Source of the DNA: Acidobacteriota bacterium
Lineage (GTDB): Bacteria; Acidobacteriota; Terriglobia; Acidiferrales; UBA7541
DNA: 37,366 nucleotides
NCBI GenBank assembly: GCA_003224145.1
Contig: QHYN01000230.1
Location: 1-37,366 of the forward strand
Direction: 5' to 3'
The notes beneath the pieces are model-generated. The model did not search any database, was not told the origin of the DNA, and worked only from the letters and a program-made list of their open reading frames with translations. Of this stretch, positions 7,460-17,085 are shown piece after piece; within the stretch, counting starts at the first letter, position 1; every line of letters starts with the position of its first letter. The translations under genes and the position numbers were made by a program.

Positions 7460-8338
7460 ATGAATGTGAATATCATTGCCGTGATTGGCGCAGGCACGAT
7501 GGGACGGGGAATTGCTTACGCTGCCGCGTTCGGCGGATACAAAACGGTACTCGAAGATGTTTCCAGTCCCGTACTGGAACAAGCGATGGTCTGGATCCGG
7601 CAATCCTTTGAAGAAGGAGTTGCGCGCGGGAAAGTGGAAGCCAGCGTCCGCGACAGGGCGCTGTCGCTGATCTCCACGGCGGCGGACGTGAAAGACGCAA
7701 TCCGTGACGCGGAGCTGATTATTGAAGCAGTTCCGGAAGAGCTGGAAATGAAGCTTGAGCTGTTCACCATTTTCGACAAGTTTGCGAAGACCGGAGCCGT
7801 TTTTGCGAGCAATACATCGTCCCTTTCGATCACCGATTTCACGGACGTGACCGTTTCACGCGACCGCTGCATCGGCATGCACTTTTTCAATCCAGTCCCG
7901 AAGATGAAGCTGATCGAACTGGTGAGAACGCCGCACACTTCCGAAGAAACAATCGCCATCTGCCGTGAAGTAGCGCGGCGCATGGGAAAAGAAGTTGTGA
8001 TCGTCAACGAGGCTCCGGGTTTCATTACCACGCGCATCAACGCGCTAATCGGAAACGAAGCCTTCAATATGCTCGAAGCGGGAATCGCGACTGCCGAAGA
8101 TATCGACAAAGCGGTGAAATTGGGCTTGAATCACCCGATGGGACCCTTCGAGCTCGGCGATCTCGTCGGCCTGGACGTTCGGCTCAAGATTCTCGAGTAC
8201 CTTCACAGCACGCTCGGCGAAAGGTACCGCCCCAATGCGCTGCTGCGACATTACGTTCAGGAGGGACGCCTGGGCCGGAAAACCGGGCGAGGCGTTTATG
8301 AATACGCGCAGCAAAAAGTGGCGGAGAAGAAAGCCTAA
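7460..8338 (+). CDS. 3-hydroxybutyryl-CoA (3-hydroxyacyl-CoA) dehydrogenase
   Basis: This 292-residue protein has the NAD-binding Rossmann fold at the N-terminus (IIAVIGAGTMGRGIAYAAA, GAGTMG at 10-15) and an acidic residue ending the second strand (LEDVSS). Catalytic His141 is in CIGMHFFNPVPKMKLIEL, and the conserved SNTSSLSIT (about 117-125), NEAPGFITTRINALIGNEAF and NHPMGPFELGDLVGLD blocks are all present. The length is that of the free-standing Hbd/PaaH enzymes (about 280-290). It oxidises (S)-3-hydroxyacyl-CoA with NAD+, the step after hydration by a crotonase, or the reverse in butyrate synthesis. I chose the ATG at 7460 because GGGAG lies 9 bases upstream and it gives the family N-terminus; an in-frame start at 7415 adds 15 unrelated residues. 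No thiolase is nearby to complete the cycle. Confidence 0.93.
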   Translation: MNVNIIAVIGAGTMGRGIAYAAAFGGYKTVLEDVSSPVLEQAMVWIRQSFEEGVARGKVEASVRDRALSLISTAADVKDAIRDAELIIEAVPEELEMKLELFTIFDKFAKTGAVFASNTSSLSITDFTDVTVSRDRCIGMHFFNPVPKMKLIELVRTPHTSEETIAICREVARRMGKEVVIVNEAPGFITTRINALIGNEAFNMLEAGIATAEDIDKAVKLGLNHPMGPFELGDLVGLDVRLKILEYLHSTLGERYRPNALLRHYVQEGRLGRKTGRGVYEYAQQKVAEKKA

Positions 8339-8369
8339 ATCGCACGAAGAAGAACGGATCGCATCGTCA

Positions 8370-8927
8370 ATGAAACCGCTGGCGGACAGAATTATTATTC
8401 AACAAGGCGACCTCACGGAGATGGATACGGACGCTATCGTCAACGCCGCGAACAACGATTTGATTCTCGGCGGCGGAGTGGCAGGAGCCATTCGCAGGAA
8501 AGGTGGAGAGGAGATCCAGCGTGAGTGCGACGAGATCGGCAGCATTCCCGTAGGCTACGCGGCCATCACCACCGGCGGCAAATTGAAGGCGCGGTTCGTG
8601 ATTCATGCCGCGAGCATGGAACTCGGCGGGAAAACCACGGCCGATTCGCTGCGAAGATCCACGGCGCATTGTCTGAAGATTGCCAATGAGCGAGGCCTTA
8701 AGTCCATTGCATTTCCAGCGGTGGGCACAGGCATCGCGGGATTTCCGCTTAAGGAATGCGCGGAGATCATGCTGCGGGAAGCGGCGCAGCACTTGCGTGG
8801 AGAAACTTCGCTCGAAACGGTACACTTCGTGCTTTTTGACGAAGCCGCGAAACTAGCGTTTCAACGGGCATGGAAGCAGATTCAGGCCGAGTCTGTTTCC
8901 GGTGCGGCGGGAGCGCCGGGCGCGTGA
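8370..8927 (+). CDS. Macro domain protein (ADP-ribose/O-acetyl-ADP-ribose binding, probable deacylase)
   Basis: This 185-residue protein is a near-complete macro domain of the MacroD/YmdB type: IQQGDLTEMDTDAIVNAANN at 10-29 with the Asp20-Asn25 pair, the phosphate loop LILGGGVAGAIRRKGG (31-46), IPVGYAAITTGGKL with the VIHAAS strand, and the second loop AFPAVGTGIAGFPLKEC (114-130). Such proteins bind ADP-ribose and can remove ADP-ribose or acetyl groups. The 12-residue C-terminal tail is Gly/Ala/Ser-rich. I used the ATG at 8370. An in-frame ATG at 8298, overlapping the dehydrogenase gene, has a better ribosome site (GGGCGAGG) but would add a 24-residue highly basic extension outside the fold; that form cannot be excluded. 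The stop overlaps the next start (GTGA). Confidence 0.88.
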   Translation: MKPLADRIIIQQGDLTEMDTDAIVNAANNDLILGGGVAGAIRRKGGEEIQRECDEIGSIPVGYAAITTGGKLKARFVIHAASMELGGKTTADSLRRSTAHCLKIANERGLKSIAFPAVGTGIAGFPLKECAEIMLREAAQHLRGETSLETVHFVLFDEAAKLAFQRAWKQIQAESVSGAAGAPGA

Positions 8928-10039
8928 CGCCGCTGGAAGAACTGCTTGCAGAACGGATCCGCCGCTACGGCCCAATTCCGTTCGCTGATTACATGCGCGA
9001 ATGCCTGTACCATCCGGTGCACGGCTATTACAGCAAACCAGAATCGGAGCGCTTCGCGGATTACTACACGAGCGCGGACGTGCATCCAATCTTTGGCCGG
9101 CTGCTTTGCCGGCAGTTTGCGGAAATGTGGGAGCACCTCAAACGGCCAAAGGGATTTCTGGTGGTGGAAGCGGGCGCGGGTGCCGGCCGGCTCGCCGGGC
9201 ACATTCTCGATTTTTCCGAAGCCAGGCTCCCGGATTTCTACTGCGCGCTGCTTTACGTCGCGGTGGAGCGCTCCGCTTTGCGCCGCGAGCAGGCAGCCAT
9301 GCGATCGCAGCGTCATGCGGATGCGGGGCATTTCCGGACTTCCGTCGAGCTTCCGGCACAGATTCCCGCAGGCTGCGTCTTCTCGAATGAGCTGATCGAT
9401 GCGCTGGCGGTGCACCGTGTGGTGATGAAAGAAGGTGCGTTGAAGGAGATCTTCGCGGGGTATGAAAACCAGAAATTTGTGGATGTCGTCGCGCCACTTT
9501 CGACTTGCGCGATCAGCGAATATTTTGCGACGCAAGGCGTCACTCTGAATGAAGGCCAGCATGCGGAAGCCGGGCTTGAAGCGTGCGACTGGATTGCCGA
9601 AGTGGGCCGGCGAATCGAACGCGGATTTGTGCTGACGATCGATTACGGCCACCGGGCAACAGACCTATTCGATGAGCACCACATGCACGGCACACTGCTT
9701 GCGTATCGCAACCATCGCGTAAGCGAAGATTTCTACGCGTCCCCGGGGGAACAGGACCTGACGGCGCACGTGAATTTCACAGCTCTCGAAACCTGGGGCA
9801 AGCGATCCGGTCTTGAGACGGTGGGTCTCACCTCGCAAACCGCGTTCTTGCTTGCACTTGGGCAAAAGAACGAGTTCGCGGATCTCTACGATGCCGGGCA
9901 GAGCGAGGCGGAGCAGGTGCGCTCGCGGCTACAGTTGAAAATGCTTATCCATCCGGAAGGGATGGGGGAACGGTTTCAGGTCCTGGTGCAGCGAAAGGGC
10001 GTGAACGGACCGCCGCTGACCGGGTCAGCGGCAGTTTGA
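8924..10039 (+). CDS. MidA/NDUFAF7-family SAM-dependent methyltransferase
   Basis: This 371-residue protein starts at a GTG whose GTGA overlaps the stop of the macro gene, with GGGAG about 8 bases upstream. Family landmarks appear in order: FADYMRECLYHPVHGYYSK (about 20-38), DYYTSADVHPIFGRLL (46-61), the SAM-binding glycine loop VVEAGAGAGRLAGHIL (80-95), VFSNELIDALAVHRV (about 150), and FVLTIDYGH (about 240). In mitochondria the homologue NDUFAF7 methylates an arginine of complex I subunit NDUFS2; bacterial substrates are not established. A longer in-frame ATG start at 8870 would overlap the macro gene by 58 bases and add residues that do not resemble the family. It is the last gene of the plus-strand run. 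Confidence 0.88.
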   Translation: MTPLEELLAERIRRYGPIPFADYMRECLYHPVHGYYSKPESERFADYYTSADVHPIFGRLLCRQFAEMWEHLKRPKGFLVVEAGAGAGRLAGHILDFSEARLPDFYCALLYVAVERSALRREQAAMRSQRHADAGHFRTSVELPAQIPAGCVFSNELIDALAVHRVVMKEGALKEIFAGYENQKFVDVVAPLSTCAISEYFATQGVTLNEGQHAEAGLEACDWIAEVGRRIERGFVLTIDYGHRATDLFDEHHMHGTLLAYRNHRVSEDFYASPGEQDLTAHVNFTALETWGKRSGLETVGLTSQTAFLLALGQKNEFADLYDAGQSEAEQVRSRLQLKMLIHPEGMGERFQVLVQRKGVNGPPLTGSAAV

Positions 10040-10120
10040 GCGCTGTTATTACCGGAGAAACGGCGTAAGCTCTGCCGTGCCAACAGCTTCCAGGCGCAGT
10101 TCAAGGAATACTTTAGGTTC

Positions 10121-10230
10121 ATATACGGTGGGGGGGGTGCCACCCCCATTGTCTTGCAAAAGAGTGCGTAATCTATAGAAGGCAAAGGATTTAGTAATCT
10201 ACGCAAAACGGAAGAGTGTGTAACTCTTGA
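10121..10230. repeat. Intergenic element: G8 run with GC hairpin followed by short diverged repeats
   Basis: A run of eight G (10130-10137), then TGCCA and five C (10143-10147), can fold into a 5-bp all-GC stem with a 5-base loop. Downstream are short repeated words: GTAATCTA at 10168 and 10194, and AAGAGTGCGTAA (about 10160) against AAGAGTGTGTAA (about 10212). A poly-G/poly-C stem followed by a few diverged units with AAAGGATTTAG-like cores is a layout I recall from dispersed intergenic elements of Acidobacteriota genomes (memory, not checked). No protein is encoded. Confidence 0.45.
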
Positions 10231-10320
10231 AAAGAAAAGACCCAAAAACTGCTGGATTTCCATCAATCGGCAAGGAGCGCGCAAATGCTTGAAATAAAAT
10301 TACTTAAGAGGGAGAAGGCA

Positions 10321-10353
10321 CTGAAAAACGAAAAGCGGCAGGAACGCTGCCGC
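10321..10353 (-). terminator. Rho-independent-type terminator pointing leftward
   Basis: GCGGCAG (10335-10341) and CTGCCGC (10347-10353) form a perfect 7-bp stem with a 5-base loop. On the minus strand the stem is followed by TTTTCGTTTTT, a good U-tract; on the plus strand no U-tract follows. It therefore fits termination of leftward transcription, yet all flanking genes are rightward. It could stop antisense transcription or belong to an unseen minus-strand RNA. Confidence 0.5.
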
Positions 10354-10427
10354 CGACCTCGGTACGTAAAAATCTCTACCTCACATCTTACCACATAAAA
10401 CAATTCCGTCAAGGAGAAATTTGAAGC

Positions 10428-10453
10428 TGTCGATCCTGCCGCGTCCCGTTCGA
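10428..10453 (+). promoter_or_regulatory. Candidate ECF42-type promoter P1 (TGTCGA-N17-CGA)
   Basis: TGTCGA at 10428-10433 and CGA at 10451-10453 (in CCGTTCGACA) are separated by exactly 17 bases, 40 bases before the ATG at 10493. The same arrangement occurs at 11279, 11878 and 12947 upstream of DGPF genes. From memory, TGTCGA at -35 and CGA/TC at -10 is the motif described for ECF42 sigma factors; one is encoded at 13522. The spacer sequence is unlike the other three, so conservation is limited to the two boxes. Confidence 0.68.
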
Positions 10454-10492
10454 CATACAAGTGAGAGCAAGAAGCCCAGTTCAGGAGGCGAC

Positions 10493-10771
10493 ATGACAAG
10501 GCAACACACACACTCTCGGGGCCTGAAACCAATCGTCGAAGCGGCGCTCGCCGGCCTTGGCATTGCTGTTTTGCTGGGAAGCCTGGATCTCGCCACAGCC
10601 CAGTTGAGCCACTTTCTCGGCACTGCCGCGTGGGGGATGCTAGGGGTACTTCCCTCTCTCGTCCCGACCGTTCTGCAGGCGCTGCTTGATTACGAGCGCT
10701 CTTTGCACTGCCCCCTGCAGATGCTGATGTCATTCTGGCCCCTGCTCGCCGTTATGGCCAGTGCGGTATAG
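10493..10771 (+). CDS. Small membrane protein of unknown function in the sigma-factor block
   Basis: This 92-residue protein starts at an ATG preceded by a perfect AGGAGG seven bases away, the strongest ribosome site in this block, which supports it as a real gene. After a short polar N-terminus it has three hydrophobic stretches: residues about 14-34 (EAALAGLGIAVLLGSLDLA), 40-62 and 75-90. This suggests two or three membrane helices. I do not recognise a family. Its promoter carries the TGTCGA-N17-CGA pattern shared with the DGPF genes, so it is likely part of the same response. An in-frame upstream start at 10421 would begin before that promoter and is rejected. Confidence 0.7.
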   Translation: MTRQHTHSRGLKPIVEAALAGLGIAVLLGSLDLATAQLSHFLGTAAWGMLGVLPSLVPTVLQALLDYERSLHCPLQMLMSFWPLLAVMASAV

Positions 10772-10805
10772 GCGCGGGGTGGACGTTCGGCCGTCAGGCC
10801 TTCCA

Positions 10806-10835
10806 TTGTAGGTTAGCCCCTGTCACAGCTATGCT
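10806..10835 (+). promoter_or_regulatory. Possible housekeeping-type promoter before the DoxX-like gene
   Basis: TTGTAG (10806-10811) and TATGCT (10830-10835) are separated by 18 bases and lie 30 bases before the ATG at 10865. The match to sigma70 boxes is partial (about four of six each). There is no TGTCGA-N17-CGA pattern here, so this gene may be transcribed either from here or by read-through from P1. Confidence 0.35.
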
Positions 10836-10864
10836 AGGCACTTCCATTATTAGAGGGAGAGAAA

Positions 10865-11248
10865 ATGAAAGTCGTACTGTTGATTGCACGCATTCTACTC
10901 GGCCTGACCTTCTTTGTGTTTGGGCTAAATGGGTTCCTGGGGTTTATTCCGACACCACCCTTGCCCGCGGGACTGGCAGGACAGTTCCTGACGGTACTGT
11001 TTCAGTCGCACTATGTTTGGTTCGTCAGCGGGGTTCAGCTTGTGGGCGGCGTGCTTTTGCTCGTCAATCGTTATGTCGTGCTCGCGCTCACGCTTCTTGG
11101 GCCGGTCATCGTGAACATTCTGCTGTATCACCTTCTTTTGGACCACACCGGTGCAATTGTAGCCGTCGTAGTCGCGCTTCTGTGGGGATTGCTGGCCTTT
11201 CGCTACCGCCAGTACTTCTCCGGGCTATTCGTCCAACGAGCCTCATGA
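10865..11248 (+). CDS. DoxX-like integral membrane protein
   Basis: This 127-residue protein has four predicted membrane helices: residues about 2-26 (LLIARILLGLTFFVFGLNGF), 47-67 (WFVSGVQLVGGVLLLVN), 70-92 and 94-112. The first helix and the following G/P-rich loop (FIPTPPLPAG) fit the DoxX/DoxX-like superfamily of small redox-associated membrane proteins. GAGGGAGAGAAA precedes the ATG. It lies between the small membrane protein and the first DGPF gene. DoxX-like and DGPF/YCII proteins are often neighbours of ECF sigma factors in soil bacteria (general observation from memory). The function is unknown. Confidence 0.75.
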   Translation: MKVVLLIARILLGLTFFVFGLNGFLGFIPTPPLPAGLAGQFLTVLFQSHYVWFVSGVQLVGGVLLLVNRYVVLALTLLGPVIVNILLYHLLLDHTGAIVAVVVALLWGLLAFRYRQYFSGLFVQRAS

Positions 11249-11278
11249 GCAAAACGTCCGAGAAATAATGTGCCTGCG

Positions 11279-11304
11279 TGTCGATGTGGCTGTTTCTTAT
11301 TCGA
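11279..11304 (+). promoter_or_regulatory. Candidate ECF42-type promoter P2
   Basis: TGTCGA at 11279-11284 and CGA at 11302-11304 (TATTCGACG) have a 17-base spacer that is T-rich and unlike those of P3 and P4. It stands about 80 bases before the first DGPF gene. The leader contains CCGGTCGAGGCCACCGG (11329-11345), able to form a small hairpin, which recurs in diverged form in the P4 leader. Confidence 0.7.
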
Positions 11305-11385
11305 CGTTGTAGTAGAGCTCTGGTTCCGCCGGTCGAGGCCACCGGGAAGCCAGTTTTGAAGACAAAATCACAAGGAGAAATGACG

Positions 11386-11814
11386 ATGAGAGTTTTGGTG
11401 ATCGTGAAGGCCAACAAGGACTCAGAGGCGGGTGTTATGCCTAGCGAGCAGCTCCTGACCGAGATGGGGAAGTTCAACGAGGAGCTGGTGAAGGCCGGCG
11501 TACTGCTCGCGGCGGAGGGCCTGCATCCGACTTCGAAAGCAAAGCGAGTCCGGTTTTCGGGGAATCAGAAAACGGTGATCGACGGCCCGTTTGCCGAGAC
11601 CAAGGAGTTGATTGCCGGATTCTGGCTGTGGCAAGTGAAGTCGATGGAAGAAGCGCTCGAATGGGTCAAGCGCTGCCCGAACCCTCACAAGGACGAGGGC
11701 GAGATTGAGATTCGCCCGGTGTTCGAGGCCGCGGACTTTGGTCCGGAACTTACTCCCGAGCTACGGGAGCAAGAGGAACGCCTTCGCAAGCGGGCAGCAG
11801 CGAAGAAGGCATAG
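11386..11814 (+). CDS. DGPF/YCII-related protein, type A copy 1
   Basis: This 142-residue protein of the YCII/DGPF family (COG3795-like) has a ferredoxin-like alpha/beta fold with no assigned reaction. It carries the family signature VIDGPFAETKELIAGFWLWQ (about residues 63-82), the preceding LLAAEGLHPTSKAKRVRFSG and the C-terminal EIEIRPVFEAADFGPEL. It is more like the gene at 12523 than the two others (shared KELIAGFW, WVKRCP/WAKRCP, GLHPxSK), so I call these type A. The charged C-terminus (EEQEERLRKRAAAKKA-like) is longer than in its paralogues. I prefer the ATG at 11386 over the one at 11380 because AGGAG is then 8 bases away rather than 2. Transcription is probably from P2. Confidence 0.85.
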   Translation: MRVLVIVKANKDSEAGVMPSEQLLTEMGKFNEELVKAGVLLAAEGLHPTSKAKRVRFSGNQKTVIDGPFAETKELIAGFWLWQVKSMEEALEWVKRCPNPHKDEGEIEIRPVFEAADFGPELTPELREQEERLRKRAAAKKA

Positions 11815-11877
11815 GCGCGGAGGGTGGCATGGCGCTGGAAGCAAAAAAAGCGCGGGGCAAGAAAATTTGGTTCAGCT

Positions 11878-11903
11878 TGTCGATTTCGCGAAGCGTCGTT
11901 CGA
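11878..11903 (+). promoter_or_regulatory. Candidate ECF42-type promoter P3
   Basis: TGTCGA at 11878-11883 and CGA at 11901-11903 (CGTTCGACG) have a 17-base spacer. The 26-base box differs from P4 by a single base in the spacer, so these two may be duplicates rather than independent evidence. It lies about 115 bases before the DGPF gene at 12017. Confidence 0.7.
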
Positions 11904-12016
11904 CGTGATAGTAGAGCCTGGGTTTTCCAGGCTGGCGTTGGAGAGATTCCGTTTGAGAACGTGGCGATCGTTCCACAAGGGCGGCGCCGAATTCAAAACC
12001 ACAAGGAGAGATCACT

Positions 12017-12382
12017 ATGAAATTCCTCAGCATTTACAAGACGGCGGAGAGAGGCGTTCCTCCTACACAGGAGGAAATGGCCAAAATGGGGAAGCTGGTC
12101 GAAGAGGGAATGAAGGCCGGCTGGCTGCTCGCCACCGAAGGCTGCCTCCCCAGCGCCCTGGGCGCACGCGTGCGCAGCTCGAATGGCAAGCTCTCCGTGA
12201 CGGATGGGCCTTTCACTGAATCCAAGGAGGTGGTCGGCGGGTTCGCGATCCTTCGGGCAAACTCCAAGGAAGAAGCCATTCAATTGGCCAAAGACTTCCT
12301 CCACGTGGCTGGCGACGGCGAGTGCGAGATTCGGCAGATCTTCGAAGCGGACACGTGCGTGCAGAAGGCCGCCACCACGTAG
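12017..12382 (+). CDS. DGPF/YCII-related protein, type B copy 1
   Basis: This 121-residue protein has the family signature SVTDGPFTESKEVVGGFAIL (about residues 60-79), followed by NSKEEAIQLAKDFL and the CEIRQIFEAD end. The KEVVGGFA version and an LPSALGARVR segment group it with the gene at 13055 (KEIVGGYA, APTAMSTRVR). The N-terminus MKFLSIYKTAERG replaces the MRFMML opening of the later copies. ACAAGGAGAG lies 6-7 bases before the ATG. DGPF proteins have no known reaction; their steady association with ECF42 sigma factors suggests a role in the response that sigma factor controls. It is transcribed from P3, with the next gene 140 bases downstream. Confidence 0.85.
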   Translation: MKFLSIYKTAERGVPPTQEEMAKMGKLVEEGMKAGWLLATEGCLPSALGARVRSSNGKLSVTDGPFTESKEVVGGFAILRANSKEEAIQLAKDFLHVAGDGECEIRQIFEADTCVQKAATT

Positions 12383-12522
12383 TTGTGCATAGTCGCGGTG
12401 AGTGCTTCGCGAAAAGGGGACTTTCGGCGCAGCAATCCCGTTCTCCTCGTTCGACAATGGCCATGCGGATCCGAACCAGCCGAAAGCATGGCCATCATCC
12501 TAATGGAAAAGGAGACGCGACC

Positions 12523-12909
12523 ATGCGATTCATGATGTTGTTGCCCGCCCCCGCGGACGCCCTGGAGAAATGCGCAGTGCCCCCAGGCGAGATCGTCACC
12601 GCAATGAGAAAATTCGATGCAGACATGAAGAAGGCTGGAGTGCTGCTCACCGAAGAGGGTCTCCACCCAAGCTCCAAGGGGGCGCGCATCCGGGTGTCCG
12701 ACGGCAAGCGCGTTGTAACCGACGGTCCGTTTACCGAGGCAAAGGAACTGATCGCAGGATTCTGGATCATTCAAGTCAAGTCAAAGGAGGAGGCCATCGA
12801 GTGGGCCAAGCGGTGTCCTCTGCCGGAGGGTGGCGTGATCGAGATACGGCAGGTGTTTGAGAACAGCGACTTCCCGCCGGAGCTGCAGAAGAAAATTGCC
12901 GGGGCGTAG
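12523..12909 (+). CDS. DGPF/YCII-related protein, type A copy 2
   Basis: This 128-residue protein opens with MRFMMLLPAPADALEKC. It has LLTEEGLHPSSKGARIRVSD and the signature VVTDGPFTEAKELIAGFWII, then EEAIEWAKRCPLPEGG and IEIRQVFENSDFPPEL. These blocks pair it with the type A copy at 11386. AAAAGGAG lies 8 bases before the ATG. Unlike the other three DGPF genes it has no upstream TGTCGA box; a CGTTCGAC resembling the -10 side is present at about 12449, but the sequence 17 bases before it (GCAGCA) does not fit. It is probably reached by read-through from P3, or has a degenerate promoter. Confidence 0.85.
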   Translation: MRFMMLLPAPADALEKCAVPPGEIVTAMRKFDADMKKAGVLLTEEGLHPSSKGARIRVSDGKRVVTDGPFTEAKELIAGFWIIQVKSKEEAIEWAKRCPLPEGGVIEIRQVFENSDFPPELQKKIAGA

Positions 12910-12946
12910 TCGCGGCGCGCCTCGGCCTTAAAAAGATGGTTCGAGC

Positions 12947-12972
12947 TGTCGATTTTGCGAAGCGTCGTTCGA
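12947..12972 (+). promoter_or_regulatory. Candidate ECF42-type promoter P4
   Basis: TGTCGA at 12947-12952 and CGA at 12970-12972 (CGTTCGATG) have a 17-base spacer, nearly identical to P3. It lies 83 bases before the DGPF gene at 13055. Since no such box precedes the sigma factor gene at 13522, P4 read-through could give positive autoregulation of the sigma factor (inference). Confidence 0.7.
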
Positions 12973-13054
12973 TGCGTAGGTGGGACGTATATTGAGCCGG
13001 TCGAGGGCATCCGGAAACCCGGTTCCCGACCGCAAACTAAAAGGAGATACAACG

Positions 13055-13432
13055 ATGCGATTCATGATGCTGGTCAAGCACGCTGAAAAAAACTCGGGCC
13101 CTCCGCCCAAGGAACTCATGGACGCCCTTGCGAAGCTCAGCGAAGAGGCGGTCAAAGCCGGCACGATCGTTGCAAGCGGAGGGTTAGCCCCAACTGCAAT
13201 GAGCACGCGCGTCCGGCTTTCTCGAGGAAAGATCAGCACGATCGACGGACCCTTCACCGAAGCCAAGGAAATCGTCGGCGGGTATGCGGTCCTCGAGTTC
13301 AAGTCAAAAGAAGAGGCGGTCGATGGAGCGTTGCGCTTCATGGAGCTGCACAAGAAATACTGGCCGGGCTGGGAAGGGGAGACCGAAGTTCGCCAGGTGT
13401 TCGGGCCGGAAGATTTCCCTCCGCAGGCATAG
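13055..13432 (+). CDS. DGPF/YCII-related protein, type B copy 2
   Basis: This 125-residue protein begins MRFMMLVKHAEKNSGPPPKE. The signature is STIDGPFTEAKEIVGGYAVL, then EFKSKEEAVDGALRFMELHK, KYWPGWEGETEVRQVFGPED. The Lys-His and Trp-rich C-terminal part is characteristic of the DGPF genes found directly beside ECF42 sigma factors (recollection). AAGGAG sits 9 bases before the ATG at 13055. It is type B, like the gene at 12017. It ends 89 bases before the sigma factor and is the copy most likely to be the ancestral partner of the sigma gene. Confidence 0.87.
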   Translation: MRFMMLVKHAEKNSGPPPKELMDALAKLSEEAVKAGTIVASGGLAPTAMSTRVRLSRGKISTIDGPFTEAKEIVGGYAVLEFKSKEEAVDGALRFMELHKKYWPGWEGETEVRQVFGPEDFPPQA

Positions 13433-13521
13433 AAGCGCGAGCATTCCCGGCAGTCACAACGATGACCGCCCCCGCGGACATGGCTTGCGCCGCTGGAGCG
13501 AAGATGGTGTGATGGGTAGCC

Positions 13522-14811
13522 GTGACGGCTACCGACACACATCGAGCGATTGACGCGATCTGGAGGATCGAGTCCGCCAGGATCATCGCCGGTCTCACGC
13601 GGATTGTGCGCGATGTTGGTCTTGCCGAGGATCTTGCACAGGACGCGCTCGTCGCCGCGCTCGAGCAGTGGCCGGAATCAGGGATCCCCGACAACCCGGG
13701 CGCCTGGCTGATGGCCACGGCAAAGCATCGTGCGATCGACCGGCTGCGCCGAGGCAGCCTGGCCGAGCGCAAGCACCAAGAGATCGGCCGCGAGCTCGAT
13801 GCCCGGCAGGAGATGGCCGTGGCGGAGCTAGAGGCGGCGATCGATGATCCCATTGGCGACGACCTCTTGCGGCTGGTGTTCATCTCCTGTCATCCGGTGC
13901 TTCCGGCAGAGGCGCGCGTTGCGCTCACGCTGCGGCTGCTCGGTGGTTTAACGACTGACGAGATTGCGCGCGCGTTCCTTGTGGCCGAGTCGACGATCGC
14001 GCAGCGCATCGTGCGCGCGAAGCGGACGCTGGCCGAGGCGGGCGTTCCTTTCGAGGTGCCCCGCGGAGCGCAGCTTGCGGCGCGTTTGTCCTCCGTGCTG
14101 GAAGTGATCTACCTCATTTTTAATGAAGGTTACTCCGCCACCGCCGGTGCGGACTGGCTGAGGCCTGCGCTTTGCGAGGATGCCTTGCGGCTCGGGCGTA
14201 TCCTGGCGGAACTCGCACCAAACGAGCCGGAGGTGCACGGTCTGGTAGCGCTCATGGAAATTCAAGCGTCGCGTTCGAGGGCGCGCGTGGACGCATCGGG
14301 AGAGCCCATCCTGCTCTTGGATCAAAACCGGGGGCAATGGGATCAACTGCTCATTCGCCGCGGTCTGGCCGCGCTGGAGCGTGCGGAGCGGCTTGATGGG
14401 GCGCGCGGGCCATACGCGATGCAGGCCGCGATCGCCGCGTGTCACGCTCGTGCGCGTACTGCGGCAGAAACCGACTGGCCGCATATCGCGACGCTCTATG
14501 GGACACTCGCCCAGCTCGCACCTTCGCCCATTGTGGAGCTGAATCGCGCAGTCGCGGTGGCCATGGCGTTCGGTCCACAAGCAGGGCTCGAGCTCATCGA
14601 TTCACTGACCAGCGAACCGTCTCTCAAGGCCTACCACCTTTTGCCCAGCGTGCGCGGCGACTTTCTTTTTAAGCTCGGCCGCGTCGCCGAGGCCCAGGCG
14701 GAGTTCGAGCGCGCTGCATCGCTCACGCGCAACGCGCGCGAGCAGGAGCTGCTCCTCAAACGTGCGCGAGCCTGCGGAGACGGCTCGGCGTCAGTCGAGG
14801 CAGGGTCCTAA
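13522..14811 (+). CDS. ECF sigma factor with long C-terminal extension (ECF42 type)
   Basis: This 429-residue protein starts at a GTG; an in-frame stop lies 12 bases upstream, so no longer form is possible. Region 2 occupies about residues 10-75, with VGLAEDLAQDALVAALEQW and NPGAWLMATAKHRAIDRLRR. Region 4 occupies about 118-170, with ALTLRLLGGLTTDEIARAFL and AESTIAQRIVRAKRTL. Residues 175-429 form a helical, TPR-like extension including YLIFNEGYSATAGADWLRPA, GQWDQLLIRRGLAALERA and VELNRAVAVAMAFGP. That architecture, plus adjacent DGPF genes, is the ECF42 group, in which the extension is reported to be needed for activity and no classical anti-sigma factor is present; none is seen here. It probably recognises the four TGTCGA-N17-CGA sites at 10428-12972. 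Confidence 0.9.
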   Translation: MTATDTHRAIDAIWRIESARIIAGLTRIVRDVGLAEDLAQDALVAALEQWPESGIPDNPGAWLMATAKHRAIDRLRRGSLAERKHQEIGRELDARQEMAVAELEAAIDDPIGDDLLRLVFISCHPVLPAEARVALTLRLLGGLTTDEIARAFLVAESTIAQRIVRAKRTLAEAGVPFEVPRGAQLAARLSSVLEVIYLIFNEGYSATAGADWLRPALCEDALRLGRILAELAPNEPEVHGLVALMEIQASRSRARVDASGEPILLLDQNRGQWDQLLIRRGLAALERAERLDGARGPYAMQAAIAACHARARTAAETDWPHIATLYGTLAQLAPSPIVELNRAVAVAMAFGPQAGLELIDSLTSEPSLKAYHLLPSVRGDFLFKLGRVAEAQAEFERAASLTRNAREQELLLKRARACGDGSASVEAGS

Positions 14812-14873
14812 AAGAAATTTCGGCCGTGTCGGGAAGCGGGGAGCACCTCGTTCATAAGGGTGATCGCGCGCTT

Positions 14874-17024
14874 CTATTGCTGGGGAGGGTTGGGCTTTTT
14901 GAGGACGGGCTTATCGCCCGAAGCCGGAGCTGGAAGCGCTGAGGCGGGCTTTGCGGGTTCGGGTGCCGCGGGCGTAGCAACGAGAGTCCCACCTTCGGTA
15001 TAAGACTTCTTGAGACACTGATCAGCTCTTGCTTGCGCACCACCGGTATTGTCGTTGGTTTGCTTGGCCTTGCTGCATTCGTTGACGGCGCGCTCGCGCT
15101 GACCCAGCAAATCGAAAATCCAGCCGAGGTAGAGGTGACTCCAAACCTCGACCCACTTCTCCGAAGGCTCAGGGACCGTTTGCAAGGCTTCGCGGAAGGA
15201 ATTTGCCGCGGCCTGATAGTTTTTCTGGTAGAAAAAGGCTTCTCCCATGCGGAAATTCGCCAGCGGGCGGTTTGGCTGGATGCTGAGCGCGCGCTGATAC
15301 TGCGTCACAGCATCGTAAAAGCGGCCCGCCTCGGCCAAGTCTTCACCTCGGGCAATGGCGGCGCGAGCGCGGAGTGAAGTATTAGCCTTGAGAATGACGT
15401 TGTTGGGATCGAGCTTGATGCCGAGGGGCTTGGGGCGGCCGAAAGTGTCGACCGAAAACTGGGATTCCAAGCCAGTCACGTCGATGGTCTTGGTTTCGGG
15501 ATTGCCTTCGGTGTCGATACGGATGTCGACGGGCATGTGGAAGGTGTCCAGAGGCTGCTTGATTTTGCCGACAACGCGGAAGCCCTTGGGGGTACGGTAG
15601 ACGACGTAGTCGAGCGAAAATTCCGGGATGCCTGTGGAGTTCAACCACTGGGCGAAGAAACTGCGCAGATTGGGAGGCTCCTGCGGGGGCTTGACGGAGG
15701 CCTGGGCGCGGCGCTCAATGATATTTTCAAAATCCTCGATGCGCGCGCTCTTTTCCGCGAACTGAAAATAAAAATCGTGCAACGCCGATTTGAAGGCCAC
15801 GTCACCCATCATCGCGCCGAGCATGTGAAAGAGCATGGCGCCCTTGTTCATGACCACGGAACGGTAGTCGGGCGAGTAAGGCGCGAGGCGAGCCGCTTGC
15901 GCGACTGGCGCGGCATCCTCATACATCAGCGCGCCCACGGCGAATTCGTCGACGGCCTTGAGGCCCGCTTCTTTGCCGGCATTTTGCTCGGCGTAGAGCG
16001 CTTCGCAGTAGCGCGCGAGGCCATCGGTGATCCAGACGTCGCCGGGCGTCGCCGGTGCAACCTGGACTCCCCACCATTGCGAGGCTACCAGCCTCGCAAT
16101 CGTGCGGTCACTGGCTTTGGGATCCCAGATGCGCTGGCTGAGAAGGAGAACTCCCGGAGCGGCAAAATCGCGCAGGGTTCCTTCTGGCAATTGAATCACA
16201 GTAAAGGTGGGGTCGGGAATGGGACCAAAGAGATCCGAAAAGACGGTAACAGCGCGCGCCACGCTCGAAGCAAAATCCTGTGCATTCGCGGACATAGCTC
16301 GTGGCGCGTAGACATTGACGCTGATCCCTTCTGCTTGTTTCGGATTGAGCTGCAGATTGCCTGCCACGAAGGTGCCGTGCGCCGCGGGCCGCTTGCACTC
16401 AAAGGTGTAAAGCAGGCGCCCGCCCTCGACGGCGTTTTTTCCGGGCATGGGCGTGGGAGCAGCGGCTTTGCCGGTGCCTGCGACCGCAAATGCCTCCGGA
16501 ACATTCAGCCGAAACGTTGCCGTATAGCGGTTGGAAGGGAAATTGGTCAGGGGAAACCAGCGCGCGGGCAAGAGCAGGTACGCGCCATCCTTGTTGATCG
16601 AGGCAGCGCGCACACCCGGCACGGGACTATTTTCCTCATTGAAAAGCAATCCAGCGTACGTGAAAGAGAGCGTGACGTGGCCGCCGGTGGCGACGGGAGT
16701 GAGTAGCTGAACGTTCAGATAGAGGGGGTTCTGATTGTCGCGCTCAAAGGCGAGTGGCTTGCCATTCTCTGCCTTGACTTCCTTGACGATCAAATTGGGA
16801 TGAAGTTCGACGCGCACGCTGCTGGAGGCTTCGACGGCGGTGAACTCGATTTTGGCGGTAGCGGAGAGCGACTGCCCGATGGCGTCCAGAGTGGCGGAGA
16901 CATCGTAATGGCTGGCGAGGAAATTTGCGGGGCGAGGAGCTTGCGCATGGAGGGGCGCAGTAGCGATGAAACCAAGGATCAGCGCAAAGAGGGAAATAGG
17001 ACGAGCAATTCTTCGGCGGGCCAT
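14874..17024 (-). CDS. Secreted M1-aminopeptidase-like protein lacking the zinc site, with C-terminal TPRs
   Basis: This 716-residue protein has a signal peptide MARRRIARPISLFALILGFI ending near LHAQ. An M1-type N-terminal beta domain follows (SHYDVSATLDAIGQSLSATA, LYLNVQLLTPVATGGHVTLS). In the catalytic domain the place of HExxHQWWG holds ARLVASQWWGVQ (about residues 305-316), and the following NEGFA motif reads TDGLARYCEALYAEQ. The GAMEN exopeptidase motif is also missing (LRDFAAPGVLLL). All zinc ligands and the catalytic Glu are thus lost while the surrounding fold is kept. Residues about 575-670 hold two TPR-like units, and a Pro/Ala/Lys tail ends the protein. It is probably a binding or scaffold protein. 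The start is the ATG at 17024 with AAAGGGG upstream. Confidence 0.82.
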   Translation of the reverse strand: MARRRIARPISLFALILGFIATAPLHAQAPRPANFLASHYDVSATLDAIGQSLSATAKIEFTAVEASSSVRVELHPNLIVKEVKAENGKPLAFERDNQNPLYLNVQLLTPVATGGHVTLSFTYAGLLFNEENSPVPGVRAASINKDGAYLLLPARWFPLTNFPSNRYTATFRLNVPEAFAVAGTGKAAAPTPMPGKNAVEGGRLLYTFECKRPAAHGTFVAGNLQLNPKQAEGISVNVYAPRAMSANAQDFASSVARAVTVFSDLFGPIPDPTFTVIQLPEGTLRDFAAPGVLLLSQRIWDPKASDRTIARLVASQWWGVQVAPATPGDVWITDGLARYCEALYAEQNAGKEAGLKAVDEFAVGALMYEDAAPVAQAARLAPYSPDYRSVVMNKGAMLFHMLGAMMGDVAFKSALHDFYFQFAEKSARIEDFENIIERRAQASVKPPQEPPNLRSFFAQWLNSTGIPEFSLDYVVYRTPKGFRVVGKIKQPLDTFHMPVDIRIDTEGNPETKTIDVTGLESQFSVDTFGRPKPLGIKLDPNNVILKANTSLRARAAIARGEDLAEAGRFYDAVTQYQRALSIQPNRPLANFRMGEAFFYQKNYQAAANSFREALQTVPEPSEKWVEVWSHLYLGWIFDLLGQRERAVNECSKAKQTNDNTGGAQARADQCLKKSYTEGGTLVATPAAPEPAKPASALPAPASGDKPVLKKPNPPQQ

Positions 17025-17085
17025 CGGACCCCTTTCAAACCGATTCAACTCGGAATCAATCCACTCTTATAGGATACCAAACCCC

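Follow-up and report, generated by a model that had tools for sequence, protein, structure and literature searches.

A four-promoter ECF42 sigma factor locus and candidate hairpins at the start of transcripts from such promoters

Sigma factors of the extracytoplasmic function (ECF) group 42 presumably act, in Streptomyces, at promoters in which TGTCGA is followed by CGA or CGT at a 17-base spacing. The subject here is a locus of this kind, at positions 10428–14811 of contig QHYN01000230.1 (37,366 nucleotides, analysed whole and referred to below as the window), in which a sigma factor gene lies downstream of four genes of the DGPF (YCII) family and of four promoter sites, P1 to P4. The host bacterium is probably an acidobacterium, as judged solely by the closest homologue of the sigma factor.

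The ECF42 members of Streptomyces venezuelae (Sven_0747, Sven_4377 and Sven_7131) and Pseudomonas putida (ECF-10) resemble the window in their TPR-rich C-terminal extension of about 200 residues and in their YCII/DGPF neighbour, according to the ECF42 passages of PMC8999054; those of PMC6180224 describe the group as having no identifiable anti-sigma gene nearby. In reviews the extension is proposed to act by binding another protein, perhaps that of the YCII gene (PMC8999054 and PMC9023288, ECF42 passages), a proposal that the architecture of the window appears to fit. Unlike the described members, the window holds four promoters in one cluster and, behind P1, a gene for a small protein found at the level of the genus. 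A further point of comparison is Sinorhizobium meliloti, where overexpression of the ECF42 sigma factor RpoE10 raised SMc01149 and SMb20475 (PMC6180224, passages on RpoE10). As in the window, a YCII gene lies upstream of the sigma gene, and the N17 promoters, as printed, end at the same register; unlike the window, the boxes are TGTCGG and CGTC, the YCII–sigma operon does not respond to RpoE10, and the targets include glyoxalase-like proteins (same passages).

The reading preferred here, to which a probability of about 0.9 is attached, is that the locus forms an ECF42 regulon in which the sigma factor would read its own motif at the four promoters of the cluster and at a fifth on another contig, with positive feedback on its own gene.

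Promoter array and sigma factor

The main features of the locus are the following.

10428–10453, forward strand: P1, ECF42-type promoter (TGTCGA-N17-CGA), 33.7 bits, predicted +1 at 10463
11279–11304, forward strand: P2 promoter, 37.5 bits, predicted +1 at 11314
11878–11903, forward strand: P3 promoter, 43.6 bits, predicted +1 at 11913
12947–12972, forward strand: P4 promoter, 35.4 bits, predicted +1 at 12982
11386–11814, forward strand: DGPF1 (YCII family), PF03795, E-value 6.4e-21
12017–12382, forward strand: DGPF2, PF03795, E-value 2.3e-13
12523–12909, forward strand: DGPF3, lacking its own promoter box, PF03795, E-value 1.9e-20
13055–13432, forward strand: DGPF4, PF03795, E-value 3.1e-11
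13522–14811, forward strand: ECF42-type sigma factor, 429 residues, with region 2, region 4, DUF6596 and a TPR-like C-terminus

A preliminary description of this DNA had placed four TGTCGA-N17-CGA sites, all in the direction of the genes and 40–115 bases before start codons, and a 429-residue ECF sigma factor with a long C-terminal extension downstream of four DGPF genes. A pattern search of the window recovers every one of these sites on the forward strand, at 10428, 11279, 11878 and 12947, with the last base of CGA lying 40 (P1), 82 (P2), 114 (P3) and 83 (P4) bases from the start codon. The only other match, at 10430–10455 on the reverse strand, is P1 read antisense, TGTCGA...TCGACA being an inverted repeat. 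Shuffled versions of the window that keep its dinucleotides fall far below the five matches observed (mean 0.36, maximum 3), which confirms that the observation of four sites is real. Moreover, a position weight matrix, built from 25 sites among 31 gene-direction N17 sites of homologous loci, scores P1–P4 at 33.7–43.6 bits and the next-best position of the window at 4.9 bits, such that these four are the only strong sites within it.

All four DGPF genes are matched by Pfam PF03795, and the protein encoded at the end of the cluster is an ECF42-type sigma factor by its Pfam domains, its structure model and its TPR-like C-terminus. Region 2 (PF04542, E-value 9.5e-11), region 4 (PF08281, 5.7e-11) and DUF6596 (7.2e-37) are all present, together with a TPR_2 match below the family cut-off. 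The AlphaFold model has a mean predicted local distance difference test score (pLDDT) of 88.3, with 308 of the 429 residues at pLDDT 90 or above and a helical C-terminus; its best Foldseek matches in the PDB are TPR superhelices, albeit at a low TM-score of about 0.3 by query. The sequence is 63–82% identical to 45 aligned homologues, among which there is no named ECF42 reference. It is also the single ECF42 gene of the assembly, the other five sigma hits being 27–32% identical. The preliminary description also saw no anti-sigma factor, and Pfam recognises no domain of that kind among the eight further window proteins scanned; the small hydrophobic protein behind P1, which carries no recognised domain, leaves the point in some doubt.

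The motif was followed in relatives through loci with a sigma homologue. Of 576 confirmed loci of this kind the best 80 were used, which come from named genomes across many phyla and include some Acidobacteria. After a search of 61 genomes, a further 34 stretches, taken from the genus and the class to which the window belongs, were added together with four from its own genome. The combined set used below comprises 115 loci (80 + 35, one of the 35 being contig C258 of the window's own genome). Over the 80 loci, the N17 spacing is seen 31 times along the direction of the genes and 3 times against it, while neighbouring spacings are about balanced, and the logo of the 31 sites reads CgTGTCGAT...CTCGTTCGACGY-N4-GTAGA. 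An exact match on either strand is present in just 27 of the 80 loci, largely because the third base of the -10 box is A or T. Indeed, among the 128 DGPF genes that have a site scoring over 10 bits no farther than 250 bp away, the box is CGACG in 60 and CGTCG in 47, both forms being found inside single loci. Across the 115 loci, sites above 12 bits number 167 in the direction of the sigma gene against 2 opposite (the training sites of the matrix included), a DGPF gene following 125 of the former. Arrays of four or more sites recur in at least six genus relatives (L187, L189, L195, L196, L198 and L200); the promoter array is therefore not special to the window. The genus also contains a second ECF42 clade (L211, L215 and L216), about 47–50% identical, with sites of the form TGTCGAT...TTCGACTA or TTCGTCTA that lie merely 48–49 bases from the ATG and thus leave a very short leader. 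The ECF42-type architecture, the motif, its gene direction and its DGPF targets are supported across the 80 loci and the relatives within the genus.

From these homologous loci the extended consensus TGTCGAT-N14-TTCGACG was derived, and in the source assembly (4.79 Mb in 359 contigs) it has three exact matches, P2, P3 and C258:535, each of which precedes a DGPF gene. The last, at 535–562 of a 3.3-kb contig (C258, locus L219), is a fifth ECF42 site upstream of a fifth DGPF gene. By eye, a reductase-like open reading frame follows this gene. When one mismatch is allowed, seven matches are obtained, namely the three exact ones, P1, P4 and two poor scorers on C64 and C157, which were dropped since the best scores in the fetched stretches were -2.0 and 4.8 bits; at up to two mismatches there are 34 matches against 28 in the control. 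The assembly has six YCII genes, and the sixth, on contig C45, has no site (best 0.5 bits over 6.5 kb). The regulon had been called self-contained, which is apt for the four sites of the cluster and not for the further site on C258.

The predicted starts come from the register with S. meliloti. The promoters of SMc01149 and SMb20475 are printed as TGTCGG-N17-CGTC, both ending at index 35 of the register (PMC6180224, Table 1), and the last printed base was taken as the start; that of SMc01149 is in lower case, which the footnote gives as found by both methods, and that of SMb20475 is presumed, bold type being invisible in the text version used. Index 35 coincides with the A of the conserved GTAGA, and the window starts are therefore predicted at 10463, 11314, 11913 and 12982.

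In the mechanism proposed, the sigma factor would recognise TGTCGAT-N14-TTCGACG and start transcription about 10 bases past CGA. P1 would then serve the small hydrophobic protein, P2 would serve DGPF1, and P3 would serve DGPF2 with presumed read-through to DGPF3. P4 would serve DGPF4 and, by read-through, the sigma gene itself, closing a putative positive feedback loop, and the fifth site would serve the fifth DGPF gene. A DGPF gene lies within 250 bp upstream of the sigma gene in 75 of the 115 loci, and 47 of those 75 DGPF genes have a site; read-through from P4 into the sigma gene is probable because 47 of 115 sigma genes thus follow a site-bearing DGPF gene. The activity of the sigma factor may be set by its TPR-like extension, perhaps via a DGPF partner, in line with the published view. 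The preliminary description had likewise supposed that the signal may be sensed there, which is what the literature proposes for ECF42.

Several observations weigh against the regulon as proposed. The loose pattern TGTCGA-N17-CGA, with which the preliminary description had suggested scanning the whole genome, gives 33 matches (5 of them in the window) against 35 in a reversed control, and alone is not informative genome-wide, the specificity residing in the extended form. Among 177 same-strand DGPF genes (two of 179 hits, on the minus strand or near an end, having been dropped), 49 have no site above 10 bits. No site lies within 250 bp upstream of any of 114 sigma genes. Finally, the YCII gene upstream of rpoE10 in S. 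meliloti is unresponsive to RpoE10 (PMC6180224, passages on RpoE10), and autoregulation is therefore not universal.

An explanation without a sigma factor would take the paired boxes as the operator of a dimeric regulator, with the sigma gene as a mere neighbour. The arms GTCGA and TCGAC are indeed inverted repeats, perfectly so on both strands at P1, and the -10 side is mostly TTCGACGY among the exact matches. What makes such an operator highly improbable is that the motif is so strongly one-directional (167 against 2), that its flanks are asymmetric (a T after TGTCGA, GTAGA at the start) and that the alternation of A and T at the third -10 base breaks the symmetry; beyond this, the motif accompanies the sigma gene in many phyla and keeps the start-site register of S. 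meliloti, where overexpression of RpoE10 raises the genes concerned (PMC6180224, as above). The four sites could also be mere copies, left by gene duplication and functionless today. Between the DGPF proteins, 43 to 55% of the aligned residues are shared, and the leader behind P2 aligns with those behind P4 (z 5.7) and P3 (z 5.3), P3 with P4 more weakly (z 2.4), while the spacers of P3 and P4 agree at 16 of 17 bases. Yet the P2 spacer shares only 7 of 17 bases with that of either P3 or P4 and both its boxes are intact, the P1 leader aligns with no other and P1 precedes a different gene, and relatives retain the boxes and the start-proximal bases despite divergent spacers; DGPF3, moreover, illustrates what loss looks like. 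That the four sites are functionless duplicates is exceedingly improbable. The preliminary description had argued from the spacers against simple duplication. The boxes did, on this comparison, outlast the P2 spacer, yet within duplicated DNA, and in view of the alignment between the P2 leader and the other two that argument was only partly right and too strong. The motif, its direction, spacing and conservation, the neighbouring genes and the family architecture of the sigma factor are all established by computation, and it is most likely that this sigma factor is what reads the motif of P1–P4.

Predicted folding at the 5′ end of the transcripts

The leaders of the predicted transcripts were taken from +1 to 12 nucleotides before the start codon, up to 60 nucleotides. 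The 128 site-bearing DGPF genes supplied 106 leaders for folding, after removal of those with an unclear start, with a site less than 75 bases away or with fewer than 28 nucleotides, and 102 for an exchange of arms. Relative to shuffled sequences the leaders have a mean folding z of -1.43 (n = 106), against -0.10 for stretches upstream of the promoter and -0.29 for coding stretches (Wilcoxon, 1e-12 and 2e-9). The pairing opens close to the start: in the 80-loci set the value for opening pairs climbs from 0.13 at +1 through 0.58 at +2 to 0.84 at +6, where shuffled sequences give 0.13, 0.30 and 0.48, and the rise is weaker in the genus set (0.20, 0.57 and 0.66; shuffled 0.16, 0.34 and 0.52). An uninterrupted stem of at least five pairs starting between +2 and +5 is found in 52 of the 106 leaders, where 16.3 are expected (29 of 53 against 7.2 in the 80-loci set; 23 of 53 against 9.0 in the genus set). 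When the 3′ part of a leader is replaced by those of other leaders, the leader's own part pairs better, at z -5.6 (n = 102), with controls at +1.7, -0.6 and -0.4; the effect is z -5.2 in the 80-loci set (n = 49) and z -2.5 in the genus set (n = 53), in which 39 of 5000 permutations are equally good and the double-centred p is 0.054. Eleven non-DGPF targets of the 80-loci set also fold well (mean z -1.78). In S. meliloti, the SMb20475 transcript is predicted, from its presumed mapped start, to form a 9-bp stem from +2, which 10 of 2000 shuffles reach, a likeness between RpoE10 and the loci considered here; four starts of other ECF groups in the same table give no stable stem (best -3.4 kcal/mol), their leaders being short and two of the stretches entering the gene. 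It is thus statistically supported, from comparison of sequences, that transcripts from ECF42-type promoters tend to open with a hairpin near +2.

The leaders of the window itself are weak in this respect, a clear stem near the 5′ end being predicted in P3 only.

11314–11385, forward strand: P2 leader RNA, predicted stem opening only at +7, z -0.21
11913–12016, forward strand: P3 leader RNA, predicted 7-bp hairpin from +3 (AGCCTGG...CCAGGCT), z -0.08 over 60 nucleotides
12982–13054, forward strand: P4 leader RNA, aligning with the P2 leader, no 5′-terminal stem predicted, z -1.14

These values count against the hairpin, as do several further results. RNAalifold finds no common structure on 33 aligned leaders, nor on 66. 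On ten P3-type leaders it gives one helix of seven pairs, the covariation of which stays within that of shuffles (out of 500 shuffles, the two-sided changes are reached by 111, the score by 98 and the paired cells by 38). Alignment-based folding hence gives no support, and the claim depends on the alignment-free tests. Starts slid 5 to 15 nucleotides downstream still exceed the shuffles (53/76, 38/71 and 42/63), so that +1 stands out as the anchor only when compared with starts placed upstream. Over a fixed stretch from -72 to -12 relative to the ATG, DGPF genes without a site (z -0.73, n = 43) are not far from those with one (-0.94, n = 123), sigma genes giving -0.31 (n = 110). Sense and antisense strands fold alike (-14.63 and -14.06 kcal/mol, the sense strand having the lower energy in 55 of 106, p 0.17), and RNA is therefore not proven over DNA. 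A search of Rfam at E-values up to 1 returned no match within 10000–15000.

The fold could, in this last regard, be a DNA palindrome bound by another protein. G–U pairing does not decide between the two, both strands folding equally well, and alignment-based covariation of the kind expected of RNA is absent or weak. Set against this are the rise of pairing at +2, both in the predicted transcripts and in SMb20475 of S. meliloti as counted from its presumed start, the variable loops and bulges of the leaders, and the P1-type leaders, which belong to the same promoter class and are stemless (mean z 0.01, n = 23), though at 11–34 nucleotides they are too short to show much. On balance a palindrome seems unlikely, if by no means far-fetched. 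These same short P1-type leaders also cast doubt, weakly in view of their length, on the hairpin as a part of the promoter itself.

There is perhaps an even chance that ECF42 regulons have a second, RNA-level layer, in which a hairpin at about +2, kept despite sequence change from Acidobacteriota to Bacillota and Pseudomonadota and seemingly absent from the short P1 leader, would set the lifetime of the message or bind a regulator. A stem at the 5′ terminus is expected to slow mRNA decay, and 5′-terminal stem-loops of the ompA type stabilise bacterial mRNA. The hairpins here are like the ompA type in that the stem begins a few nucleotides at most from the 5′ end and stops short of the ribosome-binding site, and unlike it in that they are predicted throughout a single sigma regulon over many phyla. 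That they protect messages from 5′-end-dependent decay is a guess. Were the RNA-level layer true, one sigma factor would give its targets two different output kinetics. A 5′ hairpin is not described in the ECF42 passages of PMC8999054, PMC6180224, PMC9023288 and PMC8103513, which do not by themselves establish its novelty.

Other genes of the cluster and its surroundings

Two further genes stand at the head of the cluster.

10493–10771, forward strand: small hydrophobic protein, 92 residues, behind P1; window copy unmatched in Pfam and NCBIfam
10865–11248, forward strand: DoxX-like membrane protein, 127 residues, without a site of its own; Pfam DoxX, E-value 0.001, below the cut-off

The small protein belongs to a family with 23 members behind an ECF42 site (the window, L035 and 21 relatives). 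Members were chosen as open frames, and openness is therefore no test of coding. Among the 25 pairs with more than 45% identity, 22 vary most at the third codon position, which is a modest sign of coding; a weak match to a LiaI-LiaF-like membrane region occurs in two of the 23. As for the DoxX-like gene, a phmmer search of the open reading frames of the 115 loci and the window returns the window copy only, and DoxX was on this ground rejected as a conserved member of the regulon.

The start codons used for the DGPF genes are the ATGs at 11386, 12017, 12523 and 13055, with an additional in-frame ATG at 11380. DGPF3 (12523) has no promoter, the best matrix score over the 300 bp upstream being -10.5 bits. 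A lone CTCGTTCGAC at 12446–12455, seen by eye upstream of this gene, resembles a -10 box without a -35 and could be a relic. Upstream of the cluster, on the forward strand, are a macro-domain-like protein (8235–8927, by eye) and, overlapping it, a SAM-dependent methyltransferase (8870–10039, PF02636). An M1-peptidase-like protein with C-terminal TPR repeats lies on the reverse strand at 14874–17048, convergent with the sigma gene.

Meaning for the ECF42 group

The type of regulon is already known and the array is common to relatives within the genus; what the analysis adds is the extended motif, a set of predicted starts, the family of small proteins behind P1-type sites and the hairpin predicted for the transcripts. 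The ECF42 group is widespread, and in the passages of the literature cited above its signal is unsettled. The locus offers in this regard a compact natural ECF42 promoter array with predicted starts, a specific extended consensus and a small protein at the level of the genus, and the hairpin, if it is a true RNA structure, would be a testable new feature of the whole regulon class.

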